DNA from: Pegea sp. RAD2-039 | Lineage: Eukaryota; Chordata; Thaliacea; Salpida; Salpidae | Assembly: GCA_034620365.1 (NCBI GenBank) | Contig: JAQGEQ010000300.1 | Location: 92,281-156,280, forward strand | Reading direction: 5' to 3' | Length of the DNA stretch: 64,000 bases | In this document: piece by piece, positions 9,944 through 60,136 of the stretch | How positions within the stretch are numbered: position 1 is the first letter of the stretch | How the letters are laid out: each line of letters starts with the position of its first letter | Translations under genes and position numbers: made by a program | The notes under the pieces: model-generated | The model's database searches: none | What the model was told of the DNA's origin: nothing | The model's input: only the letters and a program-made list of their open reading frames with translations

Positions 9944-9952
9944 CACAGAACA

Positions 9953-10026: not shown

Positions 10027-10340
10027 ACGAAAGATCATCTCAAATTTATTATTTATTCCAAATATTTTTACTTTTAATTGAAACTTATTCTTTCTAGGAA
10101 ATTAAATCGAAAACTTGAAATTATCTTCTTGAAGTTTCTGATTTTATTCAATTTAAAATATTTTTAAGTGACATAAATAAAGAATTATAAGTTTAATAAT
10201 TACATATATTTTATATAAAGTAGATATCTTTATATTATTGAGACAATCTATTTTACTAAATAATATTTTTGAAGTTTATCTTATTCTGTTTCTTATTACT
10301 AAAATATTTCTAATTTATTTTTTAAATTTTATTGAAATCA
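10027..10340. other. conserved 5' flank of tRNA pair 1
   Basis: AT-rich block repeated next to all seven tRNA pairs (for example 17,695-18,010 and 25,032-25,345). No gene. Confidence 0.6.
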
Positions 10341-15060: not shown

Positions 15061-15272
15061 CAACAAGAAGGACAACATCAAGAAGGACAACAGAAGGACA
15101 ACAACAAGAAGGACAACAGCAAGAAGGACAACAGCAAGAAGGACAACAGCAAGAAGGACAACAGCAAGAAGGACAACAGCAGAAGGACAACAGCAAGAAG
15201 GACAACAGCAAGAAGGACAACAGCAAGAAGGACAACAGCAAGAAGGACAACAGCAAGAAGGACAACAACAAA
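15061..15272 (+). repeat. 15-bp EGQQQ array, unit D
   Basis: About 14 units with two frame-changing units (AACAGAAGG at about 15,091; AACAGCAGAAGG at about 15,181). Confidence 0.85.
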
Positions 15273-15587
15273 GTAGTAGGCAGGAAGCTGGACAAAAACA
15301 GCGGCAGGAACTACAAGGCTATCAACAATATGTACTACAATTACTACAACATCACCTACAAAAACAAGAACAACAAGAAAGAGAAGAACAACGAAAAAAA
15401 CAAGAAGAACAAAAAATACAGCAACGTCATCGTGAAAGACGAAAACGACGAGAAAAAAAAGAACAGCAGAACCAGGAACAACAACTACAACAACTTCTTT
15501 TAAAAATACAAGAGTATCAACGACAACAAGAATTGATATTTCAACAACGTCACCGAGAAAGACAAGAAAAACAAGAAAACCACCAAC

Positions 15588-15808
15588 AACAACAACCAGA
15601 AAGGCAACCAGAACAACAACAACAACAACCAGAACAGCAACCAGAACAACAGCAACAACAACCAGAACAGCAACCAGAACCACAACAACAACAACCAGAA
15701 CACCAACCAGAACAACAACAACAACAACCAGAAAGGCAACCAGAACAACAACAACAACAACAACCAAAACAACAACCAGAACAACAACCAGAACACCAAC
15801 CAGAACAA
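15588..15808 (+). repeat. PEQQ repeat, unit D
   Basis: CCAGAACAGCAA / CCAGAACAACAA units coding PEQQ, PERQ, PEHQ and PEPQ; nearly pure CAA/CAG otherwise. Confidence 0.8.
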
Positions 15809-15979
15809 CAACTACAGCAATTTCTTTTAAAAATAGAACAGTTTCAACGACAACAAGAATTGATATTTCAACAACGTGACCGAGAAAGACAAGAAAAACA
15901 AGAAAACCAACAACAACAACCAGAACAGCAACCAGAACAACAACAACCAGAAGAGCAAGAAAGGCGAGAGCAACCATAA

Positions 15980-17539: not shown

Positions 17540-17611
17540 CTCCCCGTCGGGGAATCGAACCCCGGTCTCCCGCGTGACAGGCGGGGATACTCACCACTAT
17601 ACTAACGAGGA
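17540..17611 (-). tRNA. tRNA-Asp (GTC), pair 2
   Basis: Same 72-nt sequence as pair 1; intact cloverleaf, followed on the minus strand by TTTATTTT. Confidence 0.95.
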
Positions 17612-17620
17612 CACAGAACA

Positions 17621-17694
17621 TGGCCAGTACGGGGATCGAACCCGCGACATTCGCGTTATTAGCACGACGCTCTAACCAACTGAGCTAACCGGCC
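17621..17694 (-). tRNA. tRNA-Ile (AAT), pair 2
   Basis: Intact; 9 nt upstream of the Asp gene. Confidence 0.95.
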
Positions 17695-18014
17695 ACGAGA
17701 AATCCTCTCAAATTTGTTATTTATTCCAAATATTTTTACTTTTATTTGAAACTTATTCTTTCTAGGAAATCAAATGGAAAAGTAGAAATTGTTTTCTTGA
17801 AGTTTCTGATTTTATTCAATTTAAAATATTTTTAAGTGACATAAATAAATAATTATAAGTTTAATAATTACATATATTTTATATAAAGTAGATATCTTTA
17901 TATTATTGAAACAATCTATTTTAATAAATAATATTTTTTGAAGTTTATCTTATTTTGTTTCTTAATACTAAAATATTTCTAATTTATATTTTAAATTTTA
18001 TTGAAATCATCAAA

Positions 18015-18600: not shown

Positions 18601-18885
18601 ACTTTGAATTAACTAATTTATTAAGTTCAATCTGTTTTGAAATTTTTACTTCTTTAAAAACTCGAATTACTTATTTAAATATAAACTGTTTAATCTGCTG
18701 TTTAAAATAAAACAAAAACTTGATAAAATCATAAATATTTTACGAAGAATAACATTTATTTGTAAACGAGAAATCCATTTACAAACAACAATTAACTCGA
18801 CAAAACTTCTCAAAATACAAGAAGTTTGTTTATTTGTTTATCAGCAGATCTAAAAAAATGTTTCCAATTCAGTTCCATCATTCAA

Positions 18886-21800: not shown

Positions 21801-23127
21801 ATTAATTATTAAAAATTATAATTTTTTAGTAAATATAGAAAACTAGATAAATATCTTTATAAGTTTTGATATTTTTTATATAATTTATATCAAAGGTAAA
21901 TATTTAGAATTTCATTTTCTTCTTTAATAATTTCAACAACTGATGAGGTTTTCTATAAGAAATTGAGTTAAACAAAAACTGTAATAACTTATTCAGTCAA
22001 CTGTTATCAATTATTAATTTACATTTAAGTATAAGTAAAGATAAATCAAATAATTTCGGATAAAAAGCTAAAAATCTATCTACAATTCAGTCATAAAACT
22101 ACTACAAAAGACAAGCAAGTGTTATCAGTAAAGAAAATGTTGAATTAACTCACTGTATTGCAGTCAATAGCATTTTCAACAATTTCTCCAACAACAACTG
22201 AATTAACAGCTGAAAATAATTTCAATTTTGTATTAACATTTAAAATTCTACAATTTAATTGACAACATAAACAAAATTATAATCATAAAGTAACAAGTTT
22301 AAAAAATCAGCTTAAATTCAATAATTCCGAAAAACAACAAAATTTTTGTCTGCTACACTTACTTAAGTGCTTCATGTATTCCAACTAAAAATAAATTCAT
22401 AAATTAATTTTGCATATTAACAGAATTCCTAAATTATATAAAGCAATTATTCAAAGATTTTTTGAGTTAAACAACTAAATGAACTAAAATAATTATTATT
22501 TATAATTTTAAAAACAGTTTTTAACGTAATAATCAATTAATATTTAAAATAAATCAATTTACCAACAAACATTTCCATTGTTGCAGGTTAAAGATATTTC
22601 GTTCCAAGAATTCTAAAATATTTTATATGTTAATGTAAGAAGTTAGAATCAATTAATTCTCTAACCTGAACATTCTTTTTCTTTAAATTTACCTTAAAAC
22701 AAAAAATTTAGTTTTAAAAACTGACTATCAGTTGCATTAAGACATTTAATATAAAATGTATTCATTTAAAACTAAAAGTAAACTTACCGAACATTGATAT
22801 TTCAAATATTACTAATTTTGGCTGAAAACAATAAAAAATTAGTTAATTTAAACAAAGTAAGCTTGTTATGCATTTTATAATATTTATTTACAAGTGATAT
22901 TAATAAAGTTAACAAGTTTATTTACTTACCAGTTGAAAATAGATTTCATTTAAATGTAGGTGATTCACTACATATAAGTGAACTTCCATAGTATGATCTG
23001 AAATCAAAATAATAACATTTACTCATGAACTACAAAGTGTTAATGTTACTTGTAATTTATTACAAGGTTAAAATAGAAAATGTTAGATTGAAAAATACTT
23101 ACCAAGTAAGTCTAGTCGCTTATTCAT
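18886..23127 (-). CDS. micro-exon gene, copy 1 (inverted-repeat arm 1)
   Basis: Same 20-coding-exon structure as the plus-strand copy at 47,906, read by splicing GT-AG introns by eye. ATG at 23,127, final TAG at 18,888-18,886. Exons 1-7 encode a hydrophobic/aromatic N-terminal part (MNKRLDLLDHTMEVHLY ... EISMFG ... NIFNLQQWKCLL); exons 8-18 an acidic, serine-rich repeat-like part; exons 18-19 a basic tail (KKKRVRNFLIRVFTFGC). Differences from the other copy are mostly amino-acid replacements (E to V in exon 2, D to A in exon 7, one Asp fewer in exon 9). The exon 8 donor is CT instead of GT (21,907-21,906); reading on gives a TGA at 21,890. Because exon 8 is 45 bp and phase 0, skipping it would keep the frame. 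A 5' UTR exon with donor at 23,938 probably precedes it. Not a family I recognise. Confidence 0.6.
19280..19430. repeat. 65-bp tandem repeat in micro-exon gene intron
   Basis: AACATCATG blocks at 19,282, 19,347 and 19,412, i.e. period 65 bp, within the intron between exons 18 and 19. Present also at 34,650-34,800, 39,220-39,310 and 51,600-51,775. Confidence 0.8.
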
Positions 23128-23151
23128 CTCGAAAAATAAATAATTCTATCT

Positions 23152-24080
23152 GATGAAAAGATATTTGTAAATAGCAAGACATAAAATTGATGTTGACAAC
23201 TACTTTTTAATTATAAAGTTTTAAAATTAACTTAGTTAGTTTTAGCGATAAAAGCTATTTAATGTATTTTAATATTTTTGCCGATTTTAAAATAACAGCA
23301 AACTAAAACTGCTTATTAACATTTGAAAGTATTCAAAGAAACAATTTGAGATAACTAATAGTTTTGTTTGCGATTTCAAAATAGCTGAACCAAATATTAA
23401 AATTAAATAGAGTAATTGCATAATTTCCATTTAAATTATAATATAAAGTATAAATCGATATTAAGTTATTCAGTAACTATCTAAATTAATAATTTAATCG
23501 AGAATATTTCATAATTCTCAAATATAATTTAAAACTTTAAACGATTTACTTATTTATTTTAATTTAATTAAGTTTTAAAAGAACGATGTACAAACCTCAA
23601 TAAAGTAGACAACTAAAAGAAAAACTTTCTTACAAGTGAGTTATGAAAAATTGGTTATTACGTCATAAATACTAATATTGTTGTCAAAATAATTCAAGTT
23701 AGCTCGTTATTAACATTAAAAAATTAGTTATCTTGATTAATTGAATATTTATTTATCTTTCAGTGAAATCAATTTTATAAAATCATTTTAAACAACTCAT
23801 TAACCAAAACTCAAAAACAATTTTGTAAAAATATTTAATTAAATAACCTAAAGTGAAGTACTACAATTCTCTCATAATAATAATTAGTAAAAACAAAACT
23901 AACAATGAATTTACAAACAGTTAGTTGAAGAGCTTACCTCTAATCTTAAGATTGCTGGTTCTCAAACTTTTCATAATCAGTCTCTAAGCTGTCTTGAAAT
24001 ACTTTTAGTATAAATAAATTAGCCTAAACCGGTCACCCACAGTGAAGCACCTATATGAGTAGTAAATGAAAGTTTGTTTG
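23152..24080 (-). promoter_or_regulatory. 5' UTR exon, intron and promoter of micro-exon gene copy 1
   Basis: On the minus strand a likely non-coding exon (GACTGATTATGAAAAG ... ATTAGAG) ends at donor GTAAGC (last exon base 23,938). The acceptor TTTTCATCAG lies just upstream of the ATG exon (about 23,150). An AT-rich TATACTAAAAG stretch precedes the exon at about 24,010. Conserved in all copies. Confidence 0.45.
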
Positions 24081-24876: not shown

Positions 24877-24948
24877 CTCCCCGTCGGGGAATCGAACCCC
24901 GGTCTCCCGCGTGACAGGCGGGGATACTCACCACTATACTAACGAGGA
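24877..24948 (-). tRNA. tRNA-Asp (GTC), pair 3
   Basis: Intact 72-nt copy. Confidence 0.95.
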
Positions 24949-24957
24949 CACAGAACA

Positions 24958-25031
24958 TGGCCAGTAAGGGGATCGAACCCGCGACATTCGCGTTATTAGC
25001 ACGACGCTCTAACCAACTGACCTAACCGGTC
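24958..25031 (-). tRNA. tRNA-Ile (AAT), pair 3, decaying
   Basis: Three uncompensated changes: acceptor position 2 G to A (A2-C71 mismatch), D-stem GCTC to GGTC (also in the A box), and T-stem G64 to T (C50-T64). Probably a pseudogene or poorly expressed. Confidence 0.8.
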
Positions 25032-25349
25032 ACGAGAGATCATCTCAAATTTGTTATTTATTCCAAATATTTTTACTTTTATTTGAAACTTATTCTTTTT
25101 AGAAAATCAGATGGAAAAGTAGAAATTATTTTCTTGAAGTTTCTGATTTTATTCAATTTAAAATATTTTTAAGTGACATAAATAAAGAATTATAAGTTTA
25201 ATAATTACATATATTTTATATAACGTAGATATCTTTATATTATTGAGACAATCTATTTTACTAAATAATATTTTTTGAAGTTTATCTTATTCTGTTTCTT
25301 ATTACTAAAATATTTCAAATTTATTTTTTAAATTTTATTGAAATCATCA

Positions 25350-29399: not shown

Positions 29400-30360
29400 T
29401 TTAATATTTTTAAGGTTCACTGTTTGTACCTATGCCTTAGCAAAACTTATTTTAGAGATTCGATACTAAAGAAATTTTTCTTAACAGATTATTAAAGTTT
29501 TAAAGTAATTAAAATTTAAGAACTTTAAAATAACGTCAGTCAAATTTTGTACATCTATTTTTTACTGAGAGATAATTAAGAAAAAGATTTAGATAAAGAA
29601 AGTGAATTATGTAAGAAAACAAAAACGTTATAAACAAAATCGTTAAACAGTTTTAAAATATTGATAATTACAATAACTGTTATTATTGTTACTTTTACCA
29701 AGAATTATAGTTTAATAAGTTAAAAATAAATCAATTTTTTCTAGGGATGGAAATGACTTCCCTCAAGCTAGAATAGAAGAAAAAAAGCAAGAAAGACAAG
29801 AACTAGAAGGACAAGAACGAGAAAGACAAGGAAGAGAAGGACAAGAACGAGAAGGACAAGGACGAGAAGAACAAGAACGAGAAGGACAAGGACGAGAAGG
29901 ACAAGAACTAGAAACACAAGAACTTGAAAGACAGCAATGGGAAATACGAGAGTTTCAAAGCAAAGTGCTACAGATGTCACAACTTCACCTAAAAAGACAA
30001 AGACAACAGGAAATACAAGAACAGCAACTGCAAGAAAGACTACTGCAACGACGTCTGTGGGATATACGAGCGTATCATCGACAACAGAATCTACAATTAC
30101 AGCATCATCACCAAAATAGACAAGAGAGACCAGAGCAACAACAACAGGAAGAACAACAACATTTGTGGAATATAAAAGAGTATCAAAGACAATTGATACA
30201 ATTGCAACAAAGTTACCAACAAAGTCAACAACGTTATCGTGAAAGACAAGAACAACAAGAAATACAAAAAGAGCAGCAGATGGAGCGGCAGATGCAACGA
30301 AATCTGTGGGAAATACAAGATTGTAGACTACATGTGCTACGATTGCAGCAACTGCAAGTA

Positions 30361-30572
30361 CAGAAGGACAACAGCAAGAAGGACAACAGCAAGAAGGACA
30401 ACAGCAAGAAGGACAACAGCAAGAAGGACAACAGCAAGAAGGACAACAGCAAGAAGGACAACAACAAGAAGGACAACAGCAAGAAGGACAACAACAAGAA
30501 GGACAACAGCAAGAAGGACAACAGCAAGAAGGACAACAGCAAGAAGGACAACAGCAAGAAAGACAACAACAA
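30361..30572 (+). repeat. 15-bp EGQQQ array, unit E
   Basis: About 14 units, read as KDNSK in the frame continuing from the exon start. Confidence 0.85.
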
Positions 30573-30892
30573 AGTAGTAGGCAGGAAGCTGGACAAAAAC
30601 AGCGGCAGGAACTACAAGTCTATCAACAATATGTACTACAATTACTACAACATCACCTACAAAAACAAGAACAACTAGAAAGAGAAGAACAACGAAAAAA
30701 AACGAGAAGAACAAAAAATACAACAACGTCATCGTGAAAGACGAAAACGACGAGAAAAAAAAGAACAGCAGAACCAGGAACAACAACTACAACAACTTCT
30801 TTTAAAAATACAAGAGTATCAACGACAACAAGAATTGATATTTCAACAACGTCACCGAGAAAGACAAGAAAAACAAGAAAACCACCAACAAC

Positions 30893-31185
30893 AACAACCA
30901 GAAAGGCAACCAGAACAACAACAACAACAACCAGAACAGCAACCAGAACCACAACAACAACAACCAGAACAACAACAACCAGAACAACAACAACAACAAC
31001 CAGAACAGCAACCAGAACCACAACAACAACAACCAGAACACCAACCAGAACAACAACAACAACAACCAGAAAGGCAACCAGAGCAACAACAACAACAACC
31101 AGAACAACAACCAGAACAACAACAACAACAACCAGAACAGCAACCAGAACAACAACAACAACAACCAGAACAGCAACCAGAACAA
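30893..31185 (+). repeat. PEQQ repeat, unit E
   Basis: CCAGAACAGCAA-type units, longer than in D. Confidence 0.8.
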
Positions 31186-31329
31186 CAACTACAGCAATTT
31201 CTTTTAAAAATAGAACAGTTTCAACGACAACAAGAATTGATATTTCAACAACGTGACCGAGAAAGACAAGAAAAACAAGAAAACCAACAACAACAACCAG
31301 AACAGCAAGAAAGGCGAGAGCAACCATAA

Positions 31330-32907: not shown

Positions 32908-32979
32908 CTCCCCGTCGGGGAATCGAACCCCGGTCTCCCGCGTGACAGGCGGGGATACTCACCACTATACTAACGAGGA
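32908..32979 (-). tRNA. tRNA-Asp (GTC), pair 4
   Basis: Intact 72-nt copy. Confidence 0.95.
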
Positions 32980-32988
32980 CACAGAACA

Positions 32989-33062
32989 TGGCCAGTACGG
33001 GGATCGAACCCGCGACATTCGCGTTATTAGCACGACGCTCTAACCAACTGAGCTAACCGGTC
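32989..33062 (-). tRNA. tRNA-Ile (AAT), pair 4
   Basis: One acceptor change (second base G to A, giving A2-C71); the rest is intact. Confidence 0.9.
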
Positions 33063-33384
33063 ACGAGAGATCCTCTCAAATTTGTTATTTATTCCAAATA
33101 TTTTTACTTTTATTTGAAACTTATTCTTTCTAGGAAATCAGATGGAAAAGTAGAAACTGTTTTCTTGAATTCTCTGATTTTATTCAATTTAAAATATTTT
33201 TAAGTGACATAAATAAAGAATTATAAGTTTAATAATTACATATATTTTATAGGAAGTAGATATCTTTATATTATTGAGACAGTCTATTTTACTAAATAAT
33301 ATTTTTGAAGTTTATCTTATTCTGTTTCTTAATACTAAAATATTTCTAATTTATTTTTTAAATCTTATTGAAATCATCAAATCA

Positions 33385-33965: not shown

Positions 33966-34250
33966 AACTTTGAATTAACTAATTTATTAAGTTCAATCTG
34001 TTTTGAAATTTTTTCTTTTTTAAAAACTTGAATTTCTTATTTAAATATAAACTATTTAATCTGCTGTTTAAAATAAAACAAAAACTTGATAAAATCATAA
34101 ATATTTTACGAAGAATAACATTTATTTGTAAACGAGAAATCCATTTACAAACAACAATTAACTCGACAATACTTCTCAAAATACAAGAAGTTTGTTTATT
34201 TGTTTATCAGCAGATCAAAAAAATGTTTCCAATTCAGTTGCATCATTCAA

Positions 34251-35636
34251 CTACAGCTTCTGAAAATGAAAAATTGAATAAATAAACAGAAGTTTTATTT
34301 TCAGTTAAAATTAAAAGAAATTTTATAAAATTTTATAAAATGTTTTAAATTGTTTTTTAAATTGCTAAAATAAATTCCACAAATATAAGGCTTCCAAATT
34401 AAAATAATTTTAAAATAAGTAAATGATATAAAATATCAATTTTTAATTTACATTTTCTTACGCATCCAAAAGTAAAAACTCGAATCAGAAAGTTTCTAAG
34501 TCTCTTCTTTTTCTGCAAAATAATTCATTAAATTTATTATTTGACTTATTTCATGTTAGAAAAGCAAATATTGTTAATTTAGAAAAATGAAATTCAGAGA
34601 AATCAAAACTTTTTGTATAAAAATTAACTACTTTAATTTTCTTTAATTTATATTTAACACCATGTATTAGTATCAAGTTTTATTGTATAGTGTTATTATT
34701 AAAAATTTTAATTTATATTTAACATCATGTATTAGTATCAAGTTTTATTGTATAGTGTGGTATTAAAAATTTTAATTTATATTTATCATCATGTATTAGT
34801 GTTCACTTACAGATAATTTTTTGATGGCATCTTTCTTGATTGTGTTAACTACGTTGGCCTGCATTGAACAATTTACTACTTAATTTGAGAAACATCAAAT
34901 TTGAATATAAATATTAACTCATTAACAATAATTTCAATCAGTTTTATATCTAAATGATAAATATAAATTAAATGACAAAACTTACCTGTCTGCTTTCAAC
35001 ATTTATATTCTTAGGTTTTTCATCTGGGATATTTTGAACCTGAATAAAATTGATTTAGATTTATATGAAGGTGAAAACAAAAATATTAATTTCATTTGGA
35101 AGACATACTTTGTAAAAGTTGTCTAAAGTAGTGACAATAATTTTATTAGTTTAATTTTCTTACTGAAATATTAAATAGAATTAATAATTAAATCAGATTA
35201 AAACTTATCAAGTAAAAGTAATATAATATCAACATTAAATCACAACTAACTGGTTTGCTTTCAACATTTTGAATATTTTTATTATCATCTACGCTTTGCT
35301 TCTGAAAAATTAATATAATAATTATTATTTTTTGCAACCACTAGATTAAAAACAGCAGAATTACAAACATTAAAATATTAAATAATATTTTCTTTTAAAA
35401 ATTCAAAAATTTTACAAAAAATGAAAATTAGTTTGATTAATTTAACAACAAATTGAAGTTAAATAAAAAATTTAGATCAGTAAAAATTATTTCAAATATT
35501 TTAATTGAAAGAAAAAACTATTTTGTATTCAATTTAAATAATTCATAAAAACAAAATAAATTAGGTTTATATCAAATTAATATTTACCAAAACTGGATTC
35601 ACCAAATTATTGCTGGTTTCTCCGCTATCGGTTTCC
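34251..35636 (-). pseudogene. truncated micro-exon gene, copy 3
   Basis: Contains exons 20 (TAG at 34,253-34,251), 19, 18, 17 and 16 and one ETDSGETSNNLVNPVL exon with the flank of exon 12. Exons 1-11 and 13-15 are missing: at about 35,720 the sequence jumps to the 5' flank (equivalent of 23,905). The UTR exon donor at 35,785 is intact but cannot reach an ATG exon. Confidence 0.7.
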
Positions 35637-36658
35637 TAAAAATCACAATTTGATCTTTTATCTTTTGAAAGTAGCAAAAATGAAACTAATTATTTGATAT
35701 TTTTACAAGATTATCAATTATTTGAATAAATAAATTTATTAGTATTTTATAATGTATTTACAAACAGTTAGTTAAAGAGCTTACCTCTAATCTTAAGGTC
35801 GCTGGTTCTTAAACTTTTCATAATCAGTCTCTAGGCTCTCTTGAAATACTTTTAGTATAAATAAATTAGCATAAACCGGTCACCCACAGTGAAGCATCTA
35901 TATGAGTAGTAAATGAAAGTTTGTTTGAAAACGGTTGGTGATAATTTTATTAATAACTTTTTGATTTTCAAAATTATAAACACCAGTAAGTAAATACAAA
36001 CAGCAACAATTTGGTAAAATTATGATAGCTTATAGCTATTAAACATCTACGATTACATTTTCTAAACAAGCGTCCGCCATTCTATCAAAGTAGGTAATTA
36101 GTTGCATGCTGCTAGCAGCAGAGTTGGTTTGTAAATACAAGTTTTTCTGTAGTTGATGCTACTCAGCTTAAAAAAAACTCTAAAAATAATTTTAATTGTT
36201 TTTATTTATTTCTGATTTTTGAAATTTTTGGAATTAATTAAACTGAATAAATAAATATAAATTAAAATAAATAAAATTATTTCAAAAAAAGTTTGATTAA
36301 AGTATTGATGATTAATTCCTGAAATTATGTAAAAGTGCAAAGTACGCCAGAAGAAGAAAGGTTATTGTTGTAAAACCAAAACATGTGAACTCAGTAAAAC
36401 AAAACAAGAGGTTTAGATGTCGTTTTGTATCTTCATTATAACCTTCCACGAATGTTGAGTTTGTTGAAAAAATAAAACGTATGAACTGCTGTACAAAGTA
36501 AGTTAAGTTGTAATTGATCTTTTGGAAAATAATACTTCTTAAAAAGGTTTATTAAACTTTTGTATATAAAAAAACTCACTTGCCAGTCACTAACCAGGTA
36601 ACTTAGGACATTATCGAACATTTAATATATTAATTATTATCAAATTTGCCAAAATAAA
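35637..36658. other. micro-exon gene 5' flank copy 3
   Basis: Equivalent of 23,890-24,876, with a small extra AT-rich segment at 36,175-36,260. No gene. Confidence 0.5.
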
Positions 36659-36730
36659 CTCCCCGTTGGGGAATCGAACCCCGGTCTCCCGCGTGACAGG
36701 CGGGGATACTCACCACTATACTAACGAGGA
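36659..36730 (-). tRNA. tRNA-Asp (GTC), pair 5
   Basis: One T-stem change (G65 to A opposite C49); otherwise intact. Confidence 0.9.
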
Positions 36731-36739
36731 CACAGAACA

Positions 36740-36813
36740 TGGCCAGTACGGGGATCGAACCCGCGACATTCGCGTTATTAGCACGACGCTCTAACCAACT
36801 GAGCTAACCGGCC
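36740..36813 (-). tRNA. tRNA-Ile (AAT), pair 5
   Basis: Intact 74-nt copy. Confidence 0.95.
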
Positions 36814-37129
36814 ACGAGAGATAATCTCAAATTTGTTATTTATTCCAAATATTTTTACTTTTATTTGAAACTTTTTCTTTCTAGGAAATCAGATGTAAAA
36901 GTTGAAATTATTTTCTTAAAGTTTCTGATTTTATTCAATTTAAAATATTTTTAAGTGACATAAATAAAGAATTATAGGTTTAATAATTACATATATTTTA
37001 TAGGAAGTAGATATCTTTATATTATTGAGACAATCTATTTTACTAAATAATATTTTTGAAGTTTATCTTATTCTGTTTCTTAATACTAAAATATTTCTAA
37101 TTTATTTTTTAAAAATTATTGAAATCATC

Positions 37130-38122: not shown

Positions 38123-39060
38123 AAGACAATCAAACTTAAAATGATAACTAATGCTTAGAAATACATTTTTATTGAACATTTTATCTTCTGAAACTTCAAA
38201 CTTTGTAACATTGATATTTAGTTCATCTTATATGAAGATTTTATTCAAAACTCTCTTCTATTAATATTTTTTTCGAAAAGTAAATGTAAAAGTTAATAAA
38301 ATAGAAAATGTAAATTGCAAAACTGAAAAATAATTAATGATTTTAAATTAATTTATTTATATATATAAATTTATATATTTATTTATATTTATTTTAACGA
38401 CATTTTTCAGCAACTTAAATTGACTTATAATTAAATTAATGATTAAAGTGTCTTAACTGAAAAAATTGCTAATATTTACTAATTAAACTGCAATTGATAC
38501 ATTTTGAATAGATAGTTAGACGTTTTTGTTCTTGACACATACAAATTAACGAAAGAACTAGATAAAGTTTGTTTTTCTCATTTTTGTCATTAACATAACT
38601 TGTGTTTTTTGTATTATCAACTTAACTGTCGTGTTTGCTGATTTCTGGTTCTTTAGATGAAACTTCTTATAAAATTGAGTTTGGTCTTATGACATTTATG
38701 ATAACGATTAGAATAATAAATCTAACTTAATATCAAAACCAAATTTTAAGAATAGAAACTACAAATCTTCTGAAAACTCATTTAAAAGTTTATAAAAAGT
38801 TTTTCATTTTCTTTAAAAAAATTAAATTAAAATTTGAATTGTGAATAGAGATTACAAACAGAAGCATTTGTATGAATTCTTTGGTGGTTAAATATCTACC
38901 ATTGAAATAAAGTTAGGAACAAAAACCAATTTTTTCAGTTTTTCAGGAATTTCTAAAAAATAATTTTTTTGGATTACTTTTGAAACCAACTTGCTCAACG
39001 GACTGATAAGAAAAAGTGGTTTTTGAGTCTTCAAAGAATACCCAAAAAAATTTTTCAAGT
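38123..39060. other. Q-gene 3' flank, truncated copy
   Basis: Matches 15,980-16,860, then joins micro-exon gene exon 19/intron sequence at about 39,062. No gene. Confidence 0.55.
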
Positions 39061-39315
39061 ATATATGTCTCTTCTTTTTCTGCAAAATACTTCATTAAAT
39101 TTATTATTTGACTTATTTCATGTTAGAAAAGCAAATATTGTTAATTTAGAAAAATGAAATTCAGAGAAATCAAAATTCTTTGTATAGAAATAAACTACTT
39201 TAATTTTCTTTAATTTATATTTAACATCATGTATTAGTATCAAGTTTTATTGTATAGTGTTATTATTAAAAATTTTAATTTATATTTATCATTATGTATT
39301 ATTCTTCACTTACAG
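39061..39315 (-). pseudogene. micro-exon gene tail fragment, copy 4
   Basis: Start of exon 19 (TCTTCTTTTTCTGCA), the 65-bp-repeat intron and the donor side of exon 18 (CTTACAG), cut by the LINE at about 39,318. Confidence 0.6.
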
Positions 39316-39329
39316 AGAATTAATTAATT

Positions 39330-40190
39330 CATAAAAAGGGTCCCAGAAACATTGCACTTAACTACAGACCAGTTTCGCTGACTTCAGTTATCTGCAGAAC
39401 TCAAGAGCATATCATTTCAAATTGCTTGAACCAATACTCCATCAATAGATTTATTATTCAACGAATATCTTCGGCCCTAGACCTTAGCATTACTCTATCA
39501 TCTGACTTTAAATGGCGCAATTATTTTTCCAAAATTTTTGGAAATTTTATCAACCTTGTCTTCCTTATTATAAAGACCTTCAATTCTAAGAACCCATGCT
39601 TTTTTATCAATCTTTTCAAATTGTACGTACGTCCAATTCTTGAATACAATGTCAGTGCATGTATGCCATATCAAGTTAGTGATATCAAAAAAATCGAGTC
39701 TGTTCAGGCGACATTTACAAGATTAGTATACAGGAAACTTAATATTAAATATGATAGTTATAAACATCGTCTCAGCTTCTTCAATTTAAATAGTTTGGAA
39801 ATCCGACGGATTAAATACGACTCAATTCTTGTTTTTAAAATTATCCACAACTAAATTGACCTTAAATTCGATTATTTATTTTCTATTAGTCCTTCCCTCA
39901 AGTTATTACAACTCAGACGACACACATTACATCTTAATAAGCCCATATCACCTGCTGATTAAATCAAAGCCAATTTTTTCTCATACCGCACAATTAGTGC
40001 TGAAATCAGCTGTCATCAGACATTGAACTGCCAGGTGTTGCATCTATTTTCTCGATATTTATACCTTTACTATATATAACATTTATATTACTTGTGAGAA
40101 TGTGTGTTAGTGAGACGTGCTTTTTTCAGAAACTCTCTTTCGGGTTTATTCTACTAAATGAATAAATTTAAGTAATAATGAGTTCTTTTT
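39330..40190 (+). mobile_element. CR1/jockey-like LINE with RT palm deleted
   Basis: Frame from about 39,338 reads KKGPRNIALNYRPVSLTSVI (RT finger motif NYRPVSLTS) through NCLNQYSINR. It then passes straight to DLSITLSSDFKWR and the thumb region (LYVRPILEYNVSA, KIESVQATFTRLV, RIKYDSILVFKII) and stops at 39,854. The catalytic palm (the FADD-type box) is absent, so the copy is dead. Its 3' UTR has GTGTGTTAGTGAGACGTGCT and ends in an AATAAAT tail near 40,165. Confidence 0.8.
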
Positions 40191-41740: not shown

Positions 41741-42787
41741 AGATCGTTACGAACAATAAGTGGTTAGTAACCAGCAACAAGTGGTTAGCAACCAGCAACA
41801 AGTGTTTAGCAGCCAGCAACAAGTGGTTAGCAACCAGCAACAAGTGTTTAGCAGCCAGCAACAAGTGTTTAGCAACCAGCAACAAGTGGTTAGCAACCAG
41901 CAACAAGTGGTTAGCAACCAGCAACAAGTGTTTAGCAGCCAGCAACAAGTGTTTAGCAGCCAGCAACAAGTGGCTAGCAACCAGCAACAAGTGGTTAGCA
42001 ACCAGCAACAAGTGTTTAGCAGCCAGCAACAAGTGGCTAGCAACCAGCAACAAGTGGCTAGCAACCAGCAACAAGTGGTTAGCAACCAGCAACAAGTGTT
42101 TAGCAGCCAGCAACAAGTGGTTAGCAACCAGCAACAAGTGGTTAGCAACCAGCAACAAGTGGTTAGCAACCAGCAACAAGTGGTTAGCAGCCAGCAACAA
42201 GTGGCTAGCAACCAGCAACAAGTGGCTAGCAACCAGCAACAAGTGTTTAGCAGCCAGCAACAAGTGGTTAGCAACCAGCAACAAGTGTTTAGCAGCCAGC
42301 AACAAGTGGTTAGCAACCAGCAACAAGTGGTTAGCAACCAGCAACAAGTGGTTAGCAACCAGCAACAAGTGGTTAGCAGCCAGCAACAAGTGGCTAGCAA
42401 CCAGCAACAAGTGGCTAGCAACCAGCAACAAGTGTTTAGCAGCCAGCAACAAGTGGTTAGCAACCAGCAACAAGTGTTTAGCAGCCAGCAACAAGTGGTT
42501 AGCAACCAGCAACAAGTGGTTAGCAACCAGCAACAAGTGGTTAGCAACCAGCAACAAGTGGTTAGCAGCCAGCAACAAGTGGCTAGCAACCAGCAACAAG
42601 TGGCTAGCAACCAGCAACAAGTGTTTAGCAGCCAGCAACAAGTGGTTAGCAACCAGCAACAAGTGTTTAGCAGCCAGCAACAAGTGGTTAGCAACCAGCA
42701 ACAAGTGGTTAGCAACCAGCAACAAGTGGCTAGCAACCAGCAACAAGTGGTTAGCAACCAGTTAGCAACGATCGTTACGAACAATAA
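41741..42787 (+). repeat. 21-bp satellite with 189-bp higher-order repeats
   Basis: About 48 tandem 21-bp monomers (GTGGTTAGCAACCAGCAACAA and variants GTGTTTAGCAGCC.. and GTGGCTAGC..). The plus frame reads VVSNQQQ, VFSSQQQ and VASNQQQ for 355 codons but has no ATG (TAA directly precedes it); a second plus frame and two antisense frames are also open. From about 42,180 a block of nine monomers repeats three times with a 189-bp period. Both ends carry the direct repeat GATCGTTACGAACAATAA (41,742-41,759 and 42,770-42,787). Confidence 0.85.
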
Positions 42788-43330: not shown

Positions 43331-43435
43331 CAAGAAAACAATTTCTACTTTTCCATTTGATTTCCTAGAAAGAATAAGTTTCAAATAAAAGTAAAAATAT
43401 TTGGAATAAATAACAAATTTGAGATGATCTCTCGT

Positions 43436-43509
43436 GGCCGGTTAGCTCAGTTGGTTAGAGCGTCGTGCTAATAACGCGAATGTCGCGGGTTCGATCCCCG
43501 TACTGGCCA
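43436..43509 (+). tRNA. tRNA-Ile (AAT), pair 6
   Basis: Intact, now on the plus strand; 9-nt spacer to the Asp gene. Confidence 0.95.
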
Positions 43510-43518
43510 TGTTCTGTG

Positions 43519-43590
43519 TCCTCGTTAGTATAGTGGTGAGTATCCCCGCCTGTCACGCGGGAGACCGGGGTTCGATTCCCCGACGGGGAG
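43519..43590 (+). tRNA. tRNA-Asp (GTC), pair 6
   Basis: Intact; followed by TTTATTTT at 43,591-43,598. Confidence 0.95.
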
Positions 43591-45715: not shown

Positions 45716-46027
45716 TTTCAAAAAAATTTAAAAAATAAATTTGAAATATTTTAGTATTAAGAAACAGAATAAGATAATCTTCGAAAAATATTATTTAGTA
45801 AAATAGATTGTTTCAATAATATAAAGATATCTACTTCATATTAAGTATATGTAATTATTAAACTTATAATTATTTATTTATGTCACTTAAAAATATCTTA
45901 AATTGAATAAAATCAGAGAATTCAAGAAAATAATTTCAACTTTTCGATTTGATTTCCTAGAAAGAATAAGTTTCAAATAAAAGTAAAAATATTTGGAATA
46001 AATAACAAATTTGAGAGGATTTCTCGT

Positions 46028-46101
46028 GGCCGGTTAGCTCAGTTGGCTAGAGCGTCGTGCTAATAACGCGAATGTCGCGGGTTCGATCCCCGTACTGGCC
46101 A
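46028..46101 (+). tRNA. tRNA-Ile (AAT), pair 7
   Basis: Intact, with one D-loop change (GGTTAG to GGCTAG). Confidence 0.95.
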
Positions 46102-46110
46102 TGTTCTGTG

Positions 46111-46182
46111 TCCTCGTTAGTATAGTGGTGAGTATCCCCGCCTGTCACGCGGGAGACCGGGGTTCGATTCCCCGACGGGGAG
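46111..46182 (+). tRNA. tRNA-Asp (GTC), pair 7
   Basis: Intact; TTTATTTT follows. Confidence 0.95.
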
Positions 46183-46980
46183 TTTATTTTGGCAACTTTA
46201 ATAATAATTAATATATTAAATGTTTGATAATGTCCTAAATTACCTGGTTAGTGACTGGCAAGTGAGTTTTTTTATAAACAAAAGTTTAATAACTTAAATA
46301 AGTTGGAATAAGTTGTACATCTAAACCTCTTGGCTGGTACATTCATTCAAATTGTTATCAACAAAATAATTAGAAAATGAGATGAAATAGGTCGGAATTC
46401 TGTTTGTAATTAATACATATTTTCATCCACCAATCAAATAAGTTAGTATGGAAGCAAACAATAGATCAATTACAACTTAACTTACCTTTTACAGCAGTTC
46501 ATACGTTTTAATTCTTCAACAAACTCAAAAATCGTGGAAGGTTATAATGAAGATACAAAACGACATCTAAATCTCTTGTTTTGTTTTACTGAGTCAACAT
46601 GTTTTAGTTTTACAACAATAACCTTTCTTCTTCTGGCGTACTTTGCATTTTTATATAATTTCTGGAATTAATCATCAATATTTTAATTAAACTTCCTTTG
46701 AAATAAATTTATTTATTTTTAGAGTTTTTTTTAAGCTGAGTAGCATCAACTATAGAAAAACTTGTCTTTACAAATCAACTTTGCTAGCAGCACGCAACTA
46801 ATTACCTACTTTGATAGAATGGTGGACGCTTGTTTAGAAAACGTAATCTTAGATGTTTAATAATATAAACTATCAAACTTTTACCAAATTGTTGCTGTTT
46901 GTATTTACTTACTAGTATTTATAACTTTGAAAATCTAACAGTTATTAATAAAATTATCAGCAACCGTTTTTAACTCATAT
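46183..46980. other. upstream region of micro-exon gene copy 2
   Basis: Reverse complement of 24,081-24,876. No gene. Confidence 0.5.
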
Positions 46981-47905: not shown

Positions 47906-50900
47906 ATGAATAAGCGACTAGACTTACTTGGTAAGTATTTTTCAATCTAACATTTTCTTTTTTAACCTTGTAATAAATTACAAGTAACATTAACACTTTG
48001 TAGTTCATGAGTAAATATTATTATTTTGATTTCAGATCATACTATGGAAGTTCACTTATATGAAGTGAATCACCTACATTTAAACGAAATATATTTCCAA
48101 CTGGTAAGTAAATAAACTTGTCAACTTTATTAATATCACTTTTAAATAACTATTGTAAACTAGATAACAAGCTTGCTTTGTTTAAATTAACTAATTTTTT
48201 ATTGTTTTCAGCCAAAATTAGTATTATTTGAAATATCAATGTTCGGTAAGTTTACTTTTAGTTTTAAATGAATATATTTTAAATTAAATGTCTTAATGCA
48301 ACTGATAATCAGTTTTTAAAACTAAATTTTTTGTTTTAAGGTAAATTTAAAGAAAAAGAATGTTCAGGTTAGAGAATTAATTGATTCTAACTTCTTACAT
48401 TAACATATAAAATATTTTAGAATTTTTTGAACGAAATATCTTTAACCTGCAACAATGGAAATGTTTGTTGGTAAATTGATTTATTTTAAATATCAATTGA
48501 TTATTCCGTTAAAAACTGTTTTTAAAATTCTAAATATTAATTATTTAAGTTCATTTAGTTGTTTAACTCAATAAATCTTTGAATAATTACTTTATATAAT
48601 TTAGGGATTCTGTTAATATGCAAAATTAATTTATGAATTTATTTTTAGTTGGAATATATGAAGCACTTAAGTAAGTGTAGCAGACAAAATTTTTGTTGTT
48701 TTTCGGAATTATTGAATTTAAGCTGATTTTTTAAACTTGTTACTTTATGATTATAATTGTGTTTATGTTGTCAATTAAATTGTAGAATTTTAAATCTAAA
48801 TACAAAATTGAAATTATTTTCAGCTGTTAATTCAGTTGTTGTTGGAGAAATTGTTGAAAATGATATTGACTGCAATACAGTGAGTTAATTCAACATTTTC
48901 TTTACTGATAACACTTGCCTGTCTCTTGTAGTAGTTTTATGACTGAATTGTAAATAGACTTTTAGCATTTTAACAGAAATTATTTGATTTATCTTTAGTT
49001 ATACTTAAATGTAAATTAATAATTGATAACAGTTGACTGAATAAGTTATTACAGTTTTTGTTTAACTCAATTTCTTATAGAAAACCTCATCAGTTGTTGA
49101 AGTTATTAAAGAAGAAAATGAAATTGTAAAGATTTACCTTTGATATAAATTATATAAAATATATCAAAACTTTTAAAGATATTTATTTAATTTTTATATA
49201 TATTAAAAAAGGATAATTTTTAACAATTAGTCTTTAATAAAACAATAATGGTTATACTAAATTTAAATCAGTTTAACATCAAATATTTATCAAAGTTTCG
49301 ATACTTTTACAACAAAATAATTAAAGTAGAAGTAAAAAATCTAAACATAAAAATATCTTTCAGTTGTCTGATTCGGAAGATGATGATGATGATTCGATAG
49401 CTTCCAGCGTGAGTTTCTATTTCTTCTAATTTCAGTCTGTTCTTGATTCTAATTTAAAATTATTTTATTTAAGGTTATTGAGGCAGTTTTAGAATTGGCC
49501 AAAATAAACGAGAATAAAAAAGGTTTAAAGGTGAGATTAGATTTTTAAAACTTAATTATAAATAAATATAATATAAACTTTCATTTAAATCATTTATTTG
49601 TAACAGGACAATATAGAAGATGATACAAGTGAGACGTCTTCACTTACATCAGTATCTTCGATGGTAAGACTATTACCAAGATATCATTTGTTTGTTAAAT
49701 TGATTTTAATAATTGATGTGAAACAAAATATTACTTCTTTTTGCTGCTTCACTTGCATTTGTCTAATTTGAGTATCGTTCGCTTTTATTGTATAAAATAA
49801 TAATAATATGAGTTTTTCTAAGATCAAAATATTATAACAATTATACAGAGACACAAAATAAAAAATTCAAATAAAATATTTCAAACACATAAAAATATAT
49901 TTCTTTCTGCTAGTATGTGTTAAGGAATAAATATTTTAAGTTTAGTTTACTTTAAATTAAGATTGAATGTCAGTTTTTTGATTTAAATAATTAGCCATTT
50001 TGTTTATTAAGTTTAATAGATACTTTTTTAGTTATAATTTTATTCCAAGTTATAATTATTAAATTAAATAATTGATAATCTTGTAAAAATATCAAATAAT
50101 TTGTTTCATTTTTGCTACTTTCAAAACATAAAAGATAAAATTGTGATTTTTAGGAAACCGATAGCGGAGAAACCAGCAATAATTTGGTGGATCCAGTTTT
50201 GGTAAATATTATTTTGATATAAACCTGAATTCTTTTGTTTTTAGATATAATTTTGCCTTCTTATAATTTATTTAAAATATTTATTTATGATTTTAGATTG
50301 AAAATGATGAAATAAAAAGTGAAGTCACTTCGATATTTTCAGAACCTGATACAGTAAGTGAAAAATGATTATTTCTATTTCTTCTTCTATCTAAAAACAA
50401 ATTTATTTTGAATTTAAATGTTAAGAGTGGTATAAATATAGTTATTAAAGATCTAAATACCAGCTACTGATGTAATTATTAAATGAAATTTTGTAGGATA
50501 CAGAAGATAATTGGATTGAAACTGGTTTGATTTCTTTCAGACAAAGAGTAAACCATTTTAATTTCTTTTCAAGAACTTACTAAATTGTCATATTTATACA
50601 TTAGAAGATAAAATATTTTATTCATTTAAAAGATTTGAAATAAGTTTTTCAGATTTAAAACTTTTAGATTTAACTTCGATTTTTACTTAACTTATTAAAA
50701 CAAACTTTCATTTGTATCAAATTTTTGGCGTAAAAGAAAACATAATTTAAAAGTTTAAACTTATATTTATTAGGAAACCGATAGCGGAGAAACCAGCAAT
50801 AATTTGGTGAATCCAGTTTTGGTAAATATTAATTTGATATAAACCTAATTTCTTTTGTTTTTATGAATTATTTAAATTAAATACAAAATAGTTTTTTTCA

Positions 50901-52145
50901 ATTAAAATATTTGAAATAATTTTTACTGATCTAAATTTTTTATTTAACTTCAATTTGTTGTTAAATTAATCGAACTAATTCTCATTTTTAGTAAAATTTT
51001 TGAATTTTAAAAGAAAATATTATTTAATAATTTAATGTTTGTAATTCTGCTGTTTTTATTCTAGTGTTTGCAAAAAATAATAATTATTATTTAAATTTTT
51101 CAGAAGCAAAGCGTAGATGATAATAAAAATATTCAAAATGTTGAAAGCAAACCAGTTAGTTGTGATTTAATGTTGATATTATATTACTTTTACTTGATAA
51201 GTTTTAATCTGATTTAATTATTAATTCTATTTAATATTTCAGTAAGAAAATTAAACTAATAAAATTATTGTCACTACTTTAGACAACTTTTACAAAGTAT
51301 GTCTTCGAAATGAAATTATTATTTTTGTTTTCACCTTCATATAAATCTTAATCAGTTTTATTCAGGTTCAAAATATCCCAGATGAAAAACCTAAGAATAT
51401 AAATGTTGAAAGCAGACTGGTAAGTTTTGTCATTTAATTTATGATTATAATTTAGATATAAAATTGATTGAAATTATTGTTAATAAGTTAATATTTATAT
51501 TCAAATTTGATGCTTCTCAAATTAAGTAGTAAATTGTTCAATGCAGGCCAACGTAGTTAACACAATCAAGAAAGATGCCATCAAAAAATTATCTGTAAGT
51601 GAAGACTAATACATGATGTTAAAAATAAATTAAAATATTTAATAATAACACTATACAATAAAACTTGATACTAATACATGATGTTAAATATAAATTAAAA
51701 TATTTAATAATAACACTATACAATAAAACTTGATACTAATACATGATGTTAAATATAAATTAAAGAAAATTAATGTAGTTAATTTTTATACAAAAAGTTT
51801 TGATTTCTCTGAATTTCATTTTTCTAAATTAACAATATTTGCTTTTCTAACATGAAATAAGTCAAATAATAAATTTAATGAATTATTTTGCAGAAAAAGA
51901 AGAGACTTAGAAACTTTCTGATTCGAGTTTTTACTTTTGGTTGCGTAAGAAAATGTAAATTAAAAATTGATATTTTATATGATTTACTTATTTTAAAATT
52001 ATATTAATTTGGAAGCCTTATATTTGTGAAATTTATTTTAGCAATTTAAAAAACAATTTAAAACATTTTATAAAATTTCTTTTAATCTTAACTGAAAATA
52101 AAACTTCTGTTTATTTATTCAATTTTTCATTTTCAGAAGCTGTAG
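47906..52145 (+). CDS. micro-exon gene, copy 2 (inverted-repeat arm 2)
   Basis: Exons (read by eye, all GT-AG): 47906-47930, 48036-48103, 48212-48245, 48341-48367, 48421-48470, 48649-48670, 48824-48879, 49081-49125, 49364-49408, 49474-49530, 49607-49663, 50154-50201, 50297-50353, 50497-50547, 50774-50821, 51104-51154, 51366-51419, 51547-51594, 51894-51944, 52137-52145. They total 903 nt, a 300-residue protein without internal stop. Exons 8-19 are 45-57 bp and all phase 0, so any can be skipped or combined. N-terminal part aromatic and hydrophobic with short conserved exons; middle acidic and Ser/Thr-rich (LSDSEDDDDDS, ETDSGETSNN twice, DTEDNWIETG); end basic (KKKRLRNFLIRVFTFGCKL). The structure resembles flatworm micro-exon genes (MEGs), but exons are somewhat longer and there is no obvious signal peptide. 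Function unknown. Confidence 0.65.
51600..51775. repeat. 65-bp tandem repeat, inverted-arm copy
   Basis: Three ACATGATGTT blocks in the intron between exons 18 and 19. Confidence 0.75.
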
Positions 52146-56256: not shown

Positions 56257-57826
56257 TCAAATAAGTTCTCCATCTTGAAGACGCTGTCTGTATTTATCAA
56301 AAGGATTTCGATTAATAGTAATCTTCATCAACGGTTGTTCACCTCCTGATGAATTCTCCTTTAAAATTAAAACAAATAAAAACTCTGAATTGAATTTAAA
56401 CAAAACAAAACCTTCATCTTCTCAGATTTCATCATCTTTTCTAATAATGGTGGGAAGCGAACGTAGAGAGGTATTTCAAAATGTTCAAAATCTTCAGGTT
56501 TATAGTTTAAGAAATGATCTTCATCAATTTTAGGAATCAATCTCCAGAGTTGTTCATTTGCCTAAATCAACATCAATTTATAAAAGCACGTGACTTGAAA
56601 GACTTACTTCAGATATTTCTTGTTGAAAACCTGAACTGATTCCTTTTTCATGAAAGATACCGAACGCCACTCCACAATCTAAACTCTGTAAATATTTGAA
56701 GATATTATTGAAACTTTTCTATTTCAACATTAAGAGAATCCTCAAAATACCAAACTTTTCAACCGAACTAAATTTAGTAGACGTCTGCGCTTCTATTCAG
56801 AAAGCAGCGCACGCTGAACCACCTTCACACTATTGAACCTAAACAGTGTCTAGGTTCAATACAGCCCAGTGACCTAGACAGTGGCCTAGGGCAAAAACCT
56901 GGGACAGTGACCTAGGACAGTGGCCTGCGACAGTGGCCTGGGACAGTGACCTGAGAGAGTGGCCTAAGACAGTGACCTGTGACAGGGGCCTAGACAGTGA
57001 CCTGGGGTGGTGACCTGAGAGAGTGGCCTAAGACAGTGACCTGGGACAGGGGCCTAGACAGTGACCTGGGGTGGTGACCAGGGACAGTAACCTGAAACAG
57101 TGACCTGGGACAGCGACCTAGGACAGTGACCTGCGACAGTGGCCTGGGACAGTGACCTGAGAGAGTGACCTGCGACAGTGACCTGCGACAGCGACCTAGA
57201 CAGTGACCTGGGATAGTGACCTGGGACAGTGGCCTGGGACAGGAACAGTTAGGTCAACAAATTATAATTTTTCTGCTTTGAGCTTTTTCTTCTTTCAAAG
57301 CAACTTCAAGTTAAACCCAAAAGTTAGAAAGATGTTTCAACTCCTAGTTTAGTAGAAAATATAATTTAATTGAAATAAGAATTCTGAATTTGAAACTAAA
57401 TTAATAAAAGTAAAAATTGAAAACTTCATAAAAAGATTACTTCAACTGAATGATCAACATGAACTCCTGTAATCCTCCAAAAACTTGGGGCACCTTGAAA
57501 AGGGGGAGAATTATAAGATGCAAAAAGTCTTCCAATCCCCCAATTAGGGAGCTAAAAAAAAGAAGATTTATAAAAAGTCTTGGAAAAGTTGGAGTACTTG
57601 AGATAAGATAGTGAATAGCTTCTTTTCTGTTTGTTGTCTTTCAATCATACTTTTTGAAGGAAGTCTTAAAGATGATTTGAAGTTTGTATGAAGTGGTTCT
57701 AATGGATACTTTTTTTTGATATAATCCTAAAAGATTAAAATAGATATTTACCAACCATTTTGATAAGTTTTCAAATCTACTCACCAACAATTTCCTTTCA
57801 ACTGATGCAAATTTATGTTGAGACAT
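56257..57826 (-). CDS. MRPS34: mitochondrial ribosomal protein mS34
   Basis: Six exons on the minus strand: 57785-57826, 57598-57726, 57442-57551 (last base 57,441), 56608-56685, 56412-56561, 56257-56358; all junctions phase 0; 203 residues, near the usual length of about 200-220. Family features: LPNWGIGRLFASYNSPPF, then FWRITGVHVDHS, SLDCGVAFGIFHEKG, the EQLWRLIPKIDE segment, YVRFPPLLEKMM, and the end EQPLMKITINRNPFDKY. mS34 is an animal-type small mitoribosomal subunit protein and should be imported into mitochondria. The third intron (56,686-57,440) is about 755 bp against 58-249 bp for the others because it holds a 13-bp minisatellite. The last donor is GTTTTG. Confidence 0.9.
56860..57245. 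repeat. 13-bp minisatellite in MRPS34 intron
   Basis: About 30 degenerate units of GGGACAGTGACCT (variants CCTAGGACAGTGG, AGAGAGTGG). Same unit as 59,450-60,136. Confidence 0.85.
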
Positions 57827-59440: not shown

Positions 59441-59449
59441 TATCCAGAC

Positions 59450-60136
59450 CAGGGACAGTGACCTGGGACAGTGACCTGGGACAGTGACCAGGGACAGTGA
59501 CCTGAAACAGTGACCTGGGACAGTGACCTGGGACAGTGACCTGGGACAGTGACCTGGGACAGCGACCTGAGACAGTGACCCGGGACATTTACCTGGGACA
59601 GTGACATGGGACAGTGACCTGGGACAGTGACCTGGGACAGTGACCTGGGACAGTAACATGGAACAGTGACCTGGGACGGTGACCTAGGACAGCGACCTGG
59701 AACCGTGACCTGGGACAGCGACCTGAAACAGTGACCTGGGACAGTGACCTGGGACAGTGACCAGGGACAGTGACCCGGGACATTTACCTGGGACAGTGAC
59801 CTAGGGACAGTGACCTGGGATAGTGACCAGGGACAGTGACATGGGACAGTGACCTGGGACAGTGGCATGGGACAGTGACCTGGGACGGTGACCTAGGACA
59901 GCGACCTGGGACCGTGACCTGGGACAGCGACCTGAAACAGTGACCTGGGACAGTGACCTGGGACAGTGACCAGGGACAGTAACCAGGGACAGTGACTAGG
60001 GACAGTGACCTGGGACAGCGACCTGGGACAGTGACCTGGGACAGTGACATGAGATAGTGACCAGGGACAGTGACCTGGGACAGTGACCTGGGACAGTGAC
60101 CAGGGACAGTGACCAGGGACAGTGACCTAGGACAGT
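59450..60136. repeat. 13-bp minisatellite, intergenic
   Basis: About 52 units of GGGACAGTGACCT with variants (CCAGGGACAGT, GACCCGGGACATTTA). Because 39 = 3 x 13, minus-strand frames read SLSQVTVPGHCPR-type repeats; these are not genes. Two segments of about 230 bp (near 59,490-59,720 and 59,720-59,945) share the same order of variants, suggesting block duplication. Confidence 0.9.

Follow-up and report, generated by a model that had tools for sequence, protein, structure and literature searches.

The stretch of Pegea sp. RAD2-039 DNA analysed here (contig JAQGEQ010000300.1, positions 92,281 to 156,280; 64,000 nucleotides in all, called the window below) carries on its forward strand, at 47906-52145, a gene of 20 very short exons, designated copy A. 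Copy A probably belongs to a real, recently amplified protein-coding gene family, in which a fixed head and a fixed tail enclose a variable middle of phase-0 exons, and which encodes a putative intracellular linker protein. The family has a new architecture: a constant head (exons 1-9), a constant tail (exons 19 and 20) and, between them, one or more modules of phase-0 micro-exons.

The spliced coding sequence of copy A is 903 nt long and encodes 300 amino acids followed by a stop codon. An earlier note, made from the sequence, had described 20 exons with consensus GT-AG sites that join into a 300-residue open reading frame, and every exon was found again when it was placed anew. The GT-AG rule holds at 19 of 19 introns, which measure 53-490 nt, and the GC content is 32% in the exons versus 18% in the introns. 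Exons 8-19 are 45-57 bp long and symmetric, as the note had said, each of them being in phase 0 at both ends; exon 4 is symmetric as well (phase 1 at both ends). The weakest donors are those of exon 8 (score 1.2) and exon 14 (score 5.0). For comparison, copy A was aligned with 11 other copies, namely copy B in the window, L009 and L010 on the same contig, L026 on contig C31, and L039 and L045-L050 from contigs C26, C90, C165, C272, C70 and C253. These 12 copies represent 12 of the 23 heads in the genome; the diverged copy L032 (C191), which lacks exons 1-4, was left out. The features of copy A are as follows.

47906-47930, forward strand: exon 1, 25 nt, phase 0 to 1, with the start codon; identical in five close copies and in L039; its donor is GC in L039 and L050.
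48036-48103, forward strand: exon 2, 68 nt, phase 1 to 0, a highly conserved head exon.
48212-48245, forward strand: exon 3, 34 nt, phase 0 to 1.
48341-48367, forward strand: exon 4, 27 nt, phase 1 to 1.
48421-48470, forward strand: exon 5, 50 nt, phase 1 to 0.
48649-48670, forward strand: exon 6, 22 nt, phase 0 to 1.
48824-48879, forward strand: exon 7, 56 nt, phase 1 to 0.
49081-49125, forward strand: exon 8, 45 nt, phase 0 to 0, with a weak donor (CT in copy B) and with 12 extra nt in both C26 copies.
49364-49408, forward strand: exon 9, 45 nt, phase 0 to 0, acidic, with 3-nt length variants among the copies.
49474-49530, forward strand: exon 10, 57 nt, phase 0 to 0, without an intact aligned counterpart in L039.
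49607-49663, forward strand: exon 11, 57 nt, phase 0 to 0, Ser-rich, similar to the module-opening exons of other clades.
50154-50201, forward strand: exon 12, 48 nt, phase 0 to 0, a module exon and near-duplicate of exon 15.
50297-50353, forward strand: exon 13, 57 nt, phase 0 to 0, a module exon.
50497-50547, forward strand: exon 14, 51 nt, phase 0 to 0, facultative or dubious.
50774-50821, forward strand: exon 15, 48 nt, phase 0 to 0, duplicate of exon 12.
51104-51154, forward strand: exon 16, 51 nt, phase 0 to 0, a module exon.
51366-51419, forward strand: exon 17, 54 nt, phase 0 to 0, a module exon.
51547-51594, forward strand: exon 18, 48 nt, phase 0 to 0, basic.
51605-51764, no strand assigned: 65-bp tandem repeat within intron 18, with more repeat copies in L009.
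51894-51944, forward strand: exon 19, 51 nt, phase 0 to 0, a basic and hydrophobic tail exon.
52137-52145, forward strand: exon 20, 9 nt, two codons and the stop; the protein ends in Cys-Lys-Leu.

Both strands of the window were scanned for open phase-0 exons with good splice sites. This returned 28 rows (two pairs of which overlap), more than chance would give, as shuffled windows had 0 or 1 row each (five block shuffles per strand); 27 of the 28 lie within copies of this gene. The scan is partly circular, because its weight matrices were trained on the micro-exon family, copy A included.

The family reads, from its sequences, as coding and under constraint, with a middle that is loosely constrained or diversifying. 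The reading frame of exons 1-9 is open in all 12 heads examined, and all 20 exons are open in 5/5 full close copies when exon 8 of copy B is counted in. In neutral simulations, the probability that the frames stay open was 0.059 for copy B, 0.007 for L026, 0.014 for the L045 clade and 0.004 for the L039 clade. Over all exons of the five close copies, 189 of 190 splice sites are canonical; in the seven other copies, counted over exons 1-9, 12, 13, 16 and 17, the figure is 173 of 175, and both exceptions are GC donors. Between four pairs of close copies, all three exonic indels are 3 nt long (perhaps one event seen three times), while 59 of the 67 intronic indels are not multiples of three and eight are. 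Exons exceed introns in identity in 20 of 22 cases; the values are 84-98% versus 79-97% for exons 1-9, and 84-98% versus 75-98% for exons 12-14, 16 and 17. The ratio of nonsynonymous to synonymous substitution rates (dN/dS) over the whole coding sequence is 0.21-0.78 in five pairs among the close copies.

The family extends far beyond the window. The genome searched comprises 387 contigs with 105.7 Mb in total. A 1090-base probe taken from the 5' half of the gene found 28 matches in it, and an exon 2 probe found 23 head loci on 11 contigs with 94-100% identity. For at least 22 of these 23 heads, a tail follows downstream in the same orientation, with spans of 3.4-7.4 kb and no other head in between; the tails were taken from the best 40 of 54 candidates scored with an exon 19 probe. 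Among the matches listed, the only head without a tail is that at C159:95584, and 18 tails have no head, 13 on contigs C102 and C247 and five on C171, C31, C165, C159 and C70. On C165 and C70 the contig end is near enough that the head may have fallen off the contig. The tail, with exon 19 and the 9-nt exon 20 that holds the stop, is also kept in L052 and L053. The earlier proposal of a duplicating family is supported by these 23 heads genome-wide, and symmetric exons are gained, lost and duplicated among the copies with the frame intact.

The number of modules differs between members. An exon 17 probe gave 40 matches (the best 40 of 67 candidates), so that counts per gene are minimal and a zero means not listed. 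Among these matches, 0-3 lie between the head and the tail of a pair: the C171 and C31 members have one each, and the other 15 paired members have two or three in nine cases and one or none in six. When read directly, L039 and L045 hold more exon-17-like exons than the matches listed, and tandem modules of exon 11-, 12-, 13-, 16- and 17-like exons were read directly in L048 together with L051, in L045 and in L039. Within copy A, the duplication of exons 12 and 15 includes intron sequence.

The protein has no significant relative in Pfam or the PDB, and the earlier note had likewise recognised no family in it. A hidden Markov model search of Pfam with the 300-residue protein, which the earlier note had proposed as a check, returned no family at E values up to 10; with a second head, the single row was TAFII28 (E 0.1), under the family cut-off. 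In the PDB, a sequence search with the 300-residue protein gave three rows (E 0.26-1.1), and a seven-row profile of the head gave six rows of retroviral proteases (E 0.13-0.9), none significant in either case. The head (exons 1-9) has about 124 residues. The isoelectric point is 4.64 for the whole protein, 4.05 for exons 8-17 and 11.2 for exons 18-20. The linker, rich in Ser, Glu and Asp, is therefore acidic by composition and probably disordered, and the tail is a hydrophobic stretch rich in Lys and Arg that ends in Cys-Lys-Leu or Cys-Lys-Met. This ending fits the pattern of the peroxisomal targeting signal 1, on which we do not rely because the preceding residues are hydrophobic. By hydropathy, no signal-peptide-like stretch was found in the first 40 residues (best 10-residue stretch 1.26) and no membrane span in the whole protein (top 19-residue stretch 0.99). 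Unless a further exon lies upstream, the protein is therefore more likely to act inside the cell than to be secreted. An upstream signal-peptide exon was considered at the open frame at 47603, which looks hydrophobic by eye, and was rejected: L039 has a one-base insertion there, and no good donor was seen by eye downstream of the frame.

The proposed design would join the head to the basic tail by an acidic linker, and the variable middle would consist of phase-0 micro-exons, mostly of 45-57 nt, in one or more tandem modules. Because the middle exons begin and end between codons, exons or whole modules could be duplicated, deleted or skipped in frame. Genes would then differ in linker length and in the number of repeated motifs, and so would transcripts if exons are skipped. 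Exon-module duplication is the likeliest determinant of the length of the middle, and splicing possibly contributes. More tentatively, and with considerable doubt on our side, the family might represent a non-secreted class of micro-exon genes, in which the module number acts as a fast-evolving dial through genomic duplication and RNA skipping. If this is true, one family would encode a graded series of linkers that differ in length or in their number of binding sites, the exon-level counterpart of a coding minisatellite. The micro-exon families described so far, from parasites and gall-forming insects, produce secreted proteins; an apparently intracellular family with the same exon logic would put to the test the idea that secretion is what such architectures evolve for. 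With many close copies of unequal module number in one genome, it would also allow symmetric exons to be followed directly as they arise, duplicate and disappear.

Several results weigh against a constrained gene family with an intracellular linker product. The neutral simulations are not independent tests, because the lineages share ancestry. The dN/dS of exons 1-9 between clades is 0.47-0.91, and in L045-L049 the margin of exons over introns for exons 1-9 is just 1-2 points. Exons 12-14, 16 and 17 fall below the introns in L009 (97.3%) and L010 (96.9%), against 97.7%. For the same exons, dN/dS between copy A and five copies of other clades is 1.2-2.1, calculated from 3.7-6.7 synonymous changes, and copy A differs from L010 by eight nonsynonymous and no synonymous changes; with L026 in place of copy A the ratio is 0.55-0.74. 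The earlier note had suggested active diversification. The elevated ratios of the middle are compatible with it, as they are with relaxed constraint. Of 30 distinct dispersed copies of exon 14, 19 are open and 11 carry a stop. The C102 and C247 pieces occur in both orientations, and the exon 2 probe found no head there. The preference for an intracellular protein has hydropathy as its sole basis. As for its role, our guess is a tether or a multivalent adaptor, in which exon number would tune the reach or the number of binding sites.

The explanation that competes most closely accepts a functional gene and differs on skipping alone: splicing would be constitutive, and the symmetric exons would be a by-product of phase-0 module duplication. 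It has nearly an even chance of being correct. Runs of phase-0 exons arise automatically, because the duplicated block is phase 0, and both the joint duplication of exons 12 and 15 with intron sequence and the tandem repetition of whole modules in other members agree with such an origin. Against constitutive splicing, some exons appear to be dispensable. The exon 8 donor of copy B is changed from GT to CT, and omission of this exon would preserve the reading frame; exon 14 lacks an AG acceptor in 7/7 aligned copies of other clades. Together, these two losses suggest that some exons can be dispensed with in frame, and they are all that sets this reading apart from regulated skipping. The neighbouring exons are better kept among the distinct dispersed copies, exon 15 being open in 28 of 30 and exon 13 open with AG/GT in 7/7 of the C102/C247 copies that cover it.

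Micro-exon genes (MEGs) of Schistosoma and tapeworms are the nearest described parallel, and the statements on them below follow the excerpts of three sources (PMC7653826, PMC5825161, PMC10526429). They share with the present family runs of short exons divisible by three and duplicated members, and MEG-26 likewise repeats an exon-length pattern inside the gene. The earlier note had called the layout the hallmark of flatworm micro-exon genes, which stands for the rule of at least seven exons, of which at least half are micro-exons (<70 nt and divisible by three) in a run of at least four (PMC7653826): copy A has 20 exons, 14 micro-exons and a longest run of 13. It does not stand for the stricter description, in which symmetric exons of 6-36 bp make up about 80% of the coding region (PMC5825161), since most exons here are longer: exons of ≤36 nt number just 5 out of 20 and cover 117 of 903 coding nt, and no more than two of them, with 27 and 9 nt, have a length divisible by three. 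MEG exons may reach 81 bp (PMC10526429). Further differences are the middle exons, of 45-57 nt here versus mostly 6-36 in MEGs, and the introns, of 53-490 nt here versus up to 5 kb in S. mansoni. MEG products are secreted or membrane-anchored, and in contrast copy A has no signal-peptide-like segment by hydropathy; it starts instead with a constant multi-exon head and ends with a two-exon tail. By layout, copy A is a micro-exon gene; the evidence does not support placing it in the schistosome class.

A secreted micro-exon gene of a parasitic flatworm, in which skipped micro-exons give variant proteins at the host interface, is accordingly improbable. The 14 of 20 exons that satisfy the structural rule and a multi-copy family that changes between copies would suit it. 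The telomere arrays of the genome, which consist of TTAGGG, and the lack of nematode or arthropod cuticle matches are also compatible with a flatworm; for the latter, Chitin_bind_4 and Col_cuticle_N gave no match in the genome, in searches that matched no control genome either. It is opposed by an N-terminus that does not resemble a signal peptide in hydropathy, by the scarcity of exons of ≤36 nt and by the 300-residue protein without a Pfam match.

The bicycle genes of aphids resemble the family in a different way. As far as the excerpt of PMC9168663 describes them, they have about 17 exons on average, with small internal exons of similar size and nearly all of one phase, and form a large divergent family. 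Their internal exons are almost all in phase 2, unlike those of copy A, where phases 0, 1 and 2 account for 14, 4 and 0 of 18; the published classifier, run with its coefficients and its cutoff of 0.72, rejected copy A with a logit of -66.8 (PMC9168663). The micro-exon and bicycle literature, in the excerpts of PMC7653826, PMC5825161, PMC10526429 and PMC9168663, does not describe the present family. In the comparison with bicycle genes, including the large 'megacycle' gene, the telomere repeat here, TTAGGG, is a further point to be noted.

In the PEVK region of titin, in-phase exon modules set the length of the protein, and tandem symmetric exons encode a disordered middle between fixed ends. 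The modules of the present family consist of shorter exons and the gene is multi-copy, unlike titin, and we know of no sequence relation between the two.

Much of the dispersed material is fragmentary. A probe made from part of exon 14 and intron 14 matched at 41 places, with 40 of 74 candidates scored, mostly on C102 and C247, and many of the pieces on these contigs look like rearranged leftovers. A left homology limit near 46700-46717 recurs in several copies. A mobile element was considered for this reason and rejected, as the two ends compared share just 8-15-base matches (best E about 0.05) and no convincing terminal inverted repeat. Decay of a duplicated locus or of a repeat element, with most copies being pseudogenes from segmental duplication or a mobile unit, is the least probable of the explanations, since the headless pieces in both orientations, the common left limit and the 65-bp repeat of intron 18 that speak for it are opposed by the open frames and kept splice sites of the 12 heads, by exonic indels that are all 3 nt, by exons that beat introns in all comparisons except exons 12-17 of L009 and L010, and by the missing inverted repeat.

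Besides copy A, the window contains three further pieces of the family, all on the reverse strand.

18712-24032, reverse strand: copy B with its flanks, 96.3% identical to copy A, with the exon 8 donor changed from GT to CT.
34040-35660, reverse strand: headless 3' part of a copy, matching exon 15 to exon 20.
39057-39321, reverse strand: 265-bp fragment, whose match runs from the last part of exon 18 through intron 18 into the beginning of exon 19.

The earlier count of two complete and two truncated copies needs adjustment in both parts. Copy A is complete, and copy B, having lost the exon 8 donor, is complete only without exon 8; one truncated copy keeps exons 15-20, with a piece of the 5' flank beside it at 35749-36189, and the other is merely the 265-bp piece.

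Other sequences accompany the copies. A conserved segment at 46713-46880 reads as the last coding exon of another gene and travels with the copies of the micro-exon gene. In copy A it ends ...FDRMVDACLENVILDV* and has a stop within its upstream part too, and the L039 version is shortened by a stop. It ends in a stop in copies A and B and was not joined to the micro-exon gene. A pair of tRNA genes, tRNA-Ile(AAT) and tRNA-Asp(GTC), occurs in seven copies in the window (9872-10027, 17540-17695, 24877-25032, 32908-33063, 36659-36814, 43435-43590 and 46027-46182), the last of which lies upstream of copy A in a block common to copies A and B.

As for the genome as a whole, COX1 had no match, in a search that matched in 8 of 14 control genomes, and the rotifer spliced leader (Table 1 in the excerpt of PMC3795323) was not found within two mismatches. 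A full-length 18S rRNA match lies in L040 (C27), and a second match of lower score, L041 (C125), stands beside a sequence that looks zinc-finger-like by eye.

The rest of the window holds mostly repeats and frames of other kinds. The neighbouring gene at 63 kb matches pseudouridine-5'-phosphatase in the PDB (E 8e-61) and HDHD1A (2e-60), followed by a Thermotoga-type phosphatase (TM_1254, 2e-21); together with the large, AT-rich and intron-bearing genome, these matches point to an animal. Three near-identical frames of 168-188 amino acids lie at 2511-3017, 4892-5398 and 8327-8893; the one tested gave a weak C-terminal RRM start under the cut-off and no PDB match up to E 1. Gln-rich frames on 15-, 12- and 33-bp tandem repeats occupy 17-1801, 3449-4279, 6263-7714, 14656-15979 and 29965-31329, and the two tested had no Pfam family above the cut-off. 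A frame of 142 amino acids at 39426-39854 resembles by eye the end of the reverse transcriptase of a long interspersed nuclear element, and had no Pfam match up to E 0.1. About 48 head-to-tail 21-bp units at 41754-42761 form a frame of 355 amino acids with QQVVSNQ-like repeats. Finally, 13-bp minisatellites with a unit like GACCTGGGACAGT are present at 56867-57242 and 59447-60136, the second with a frame of 142 amino acids on the minus strand.

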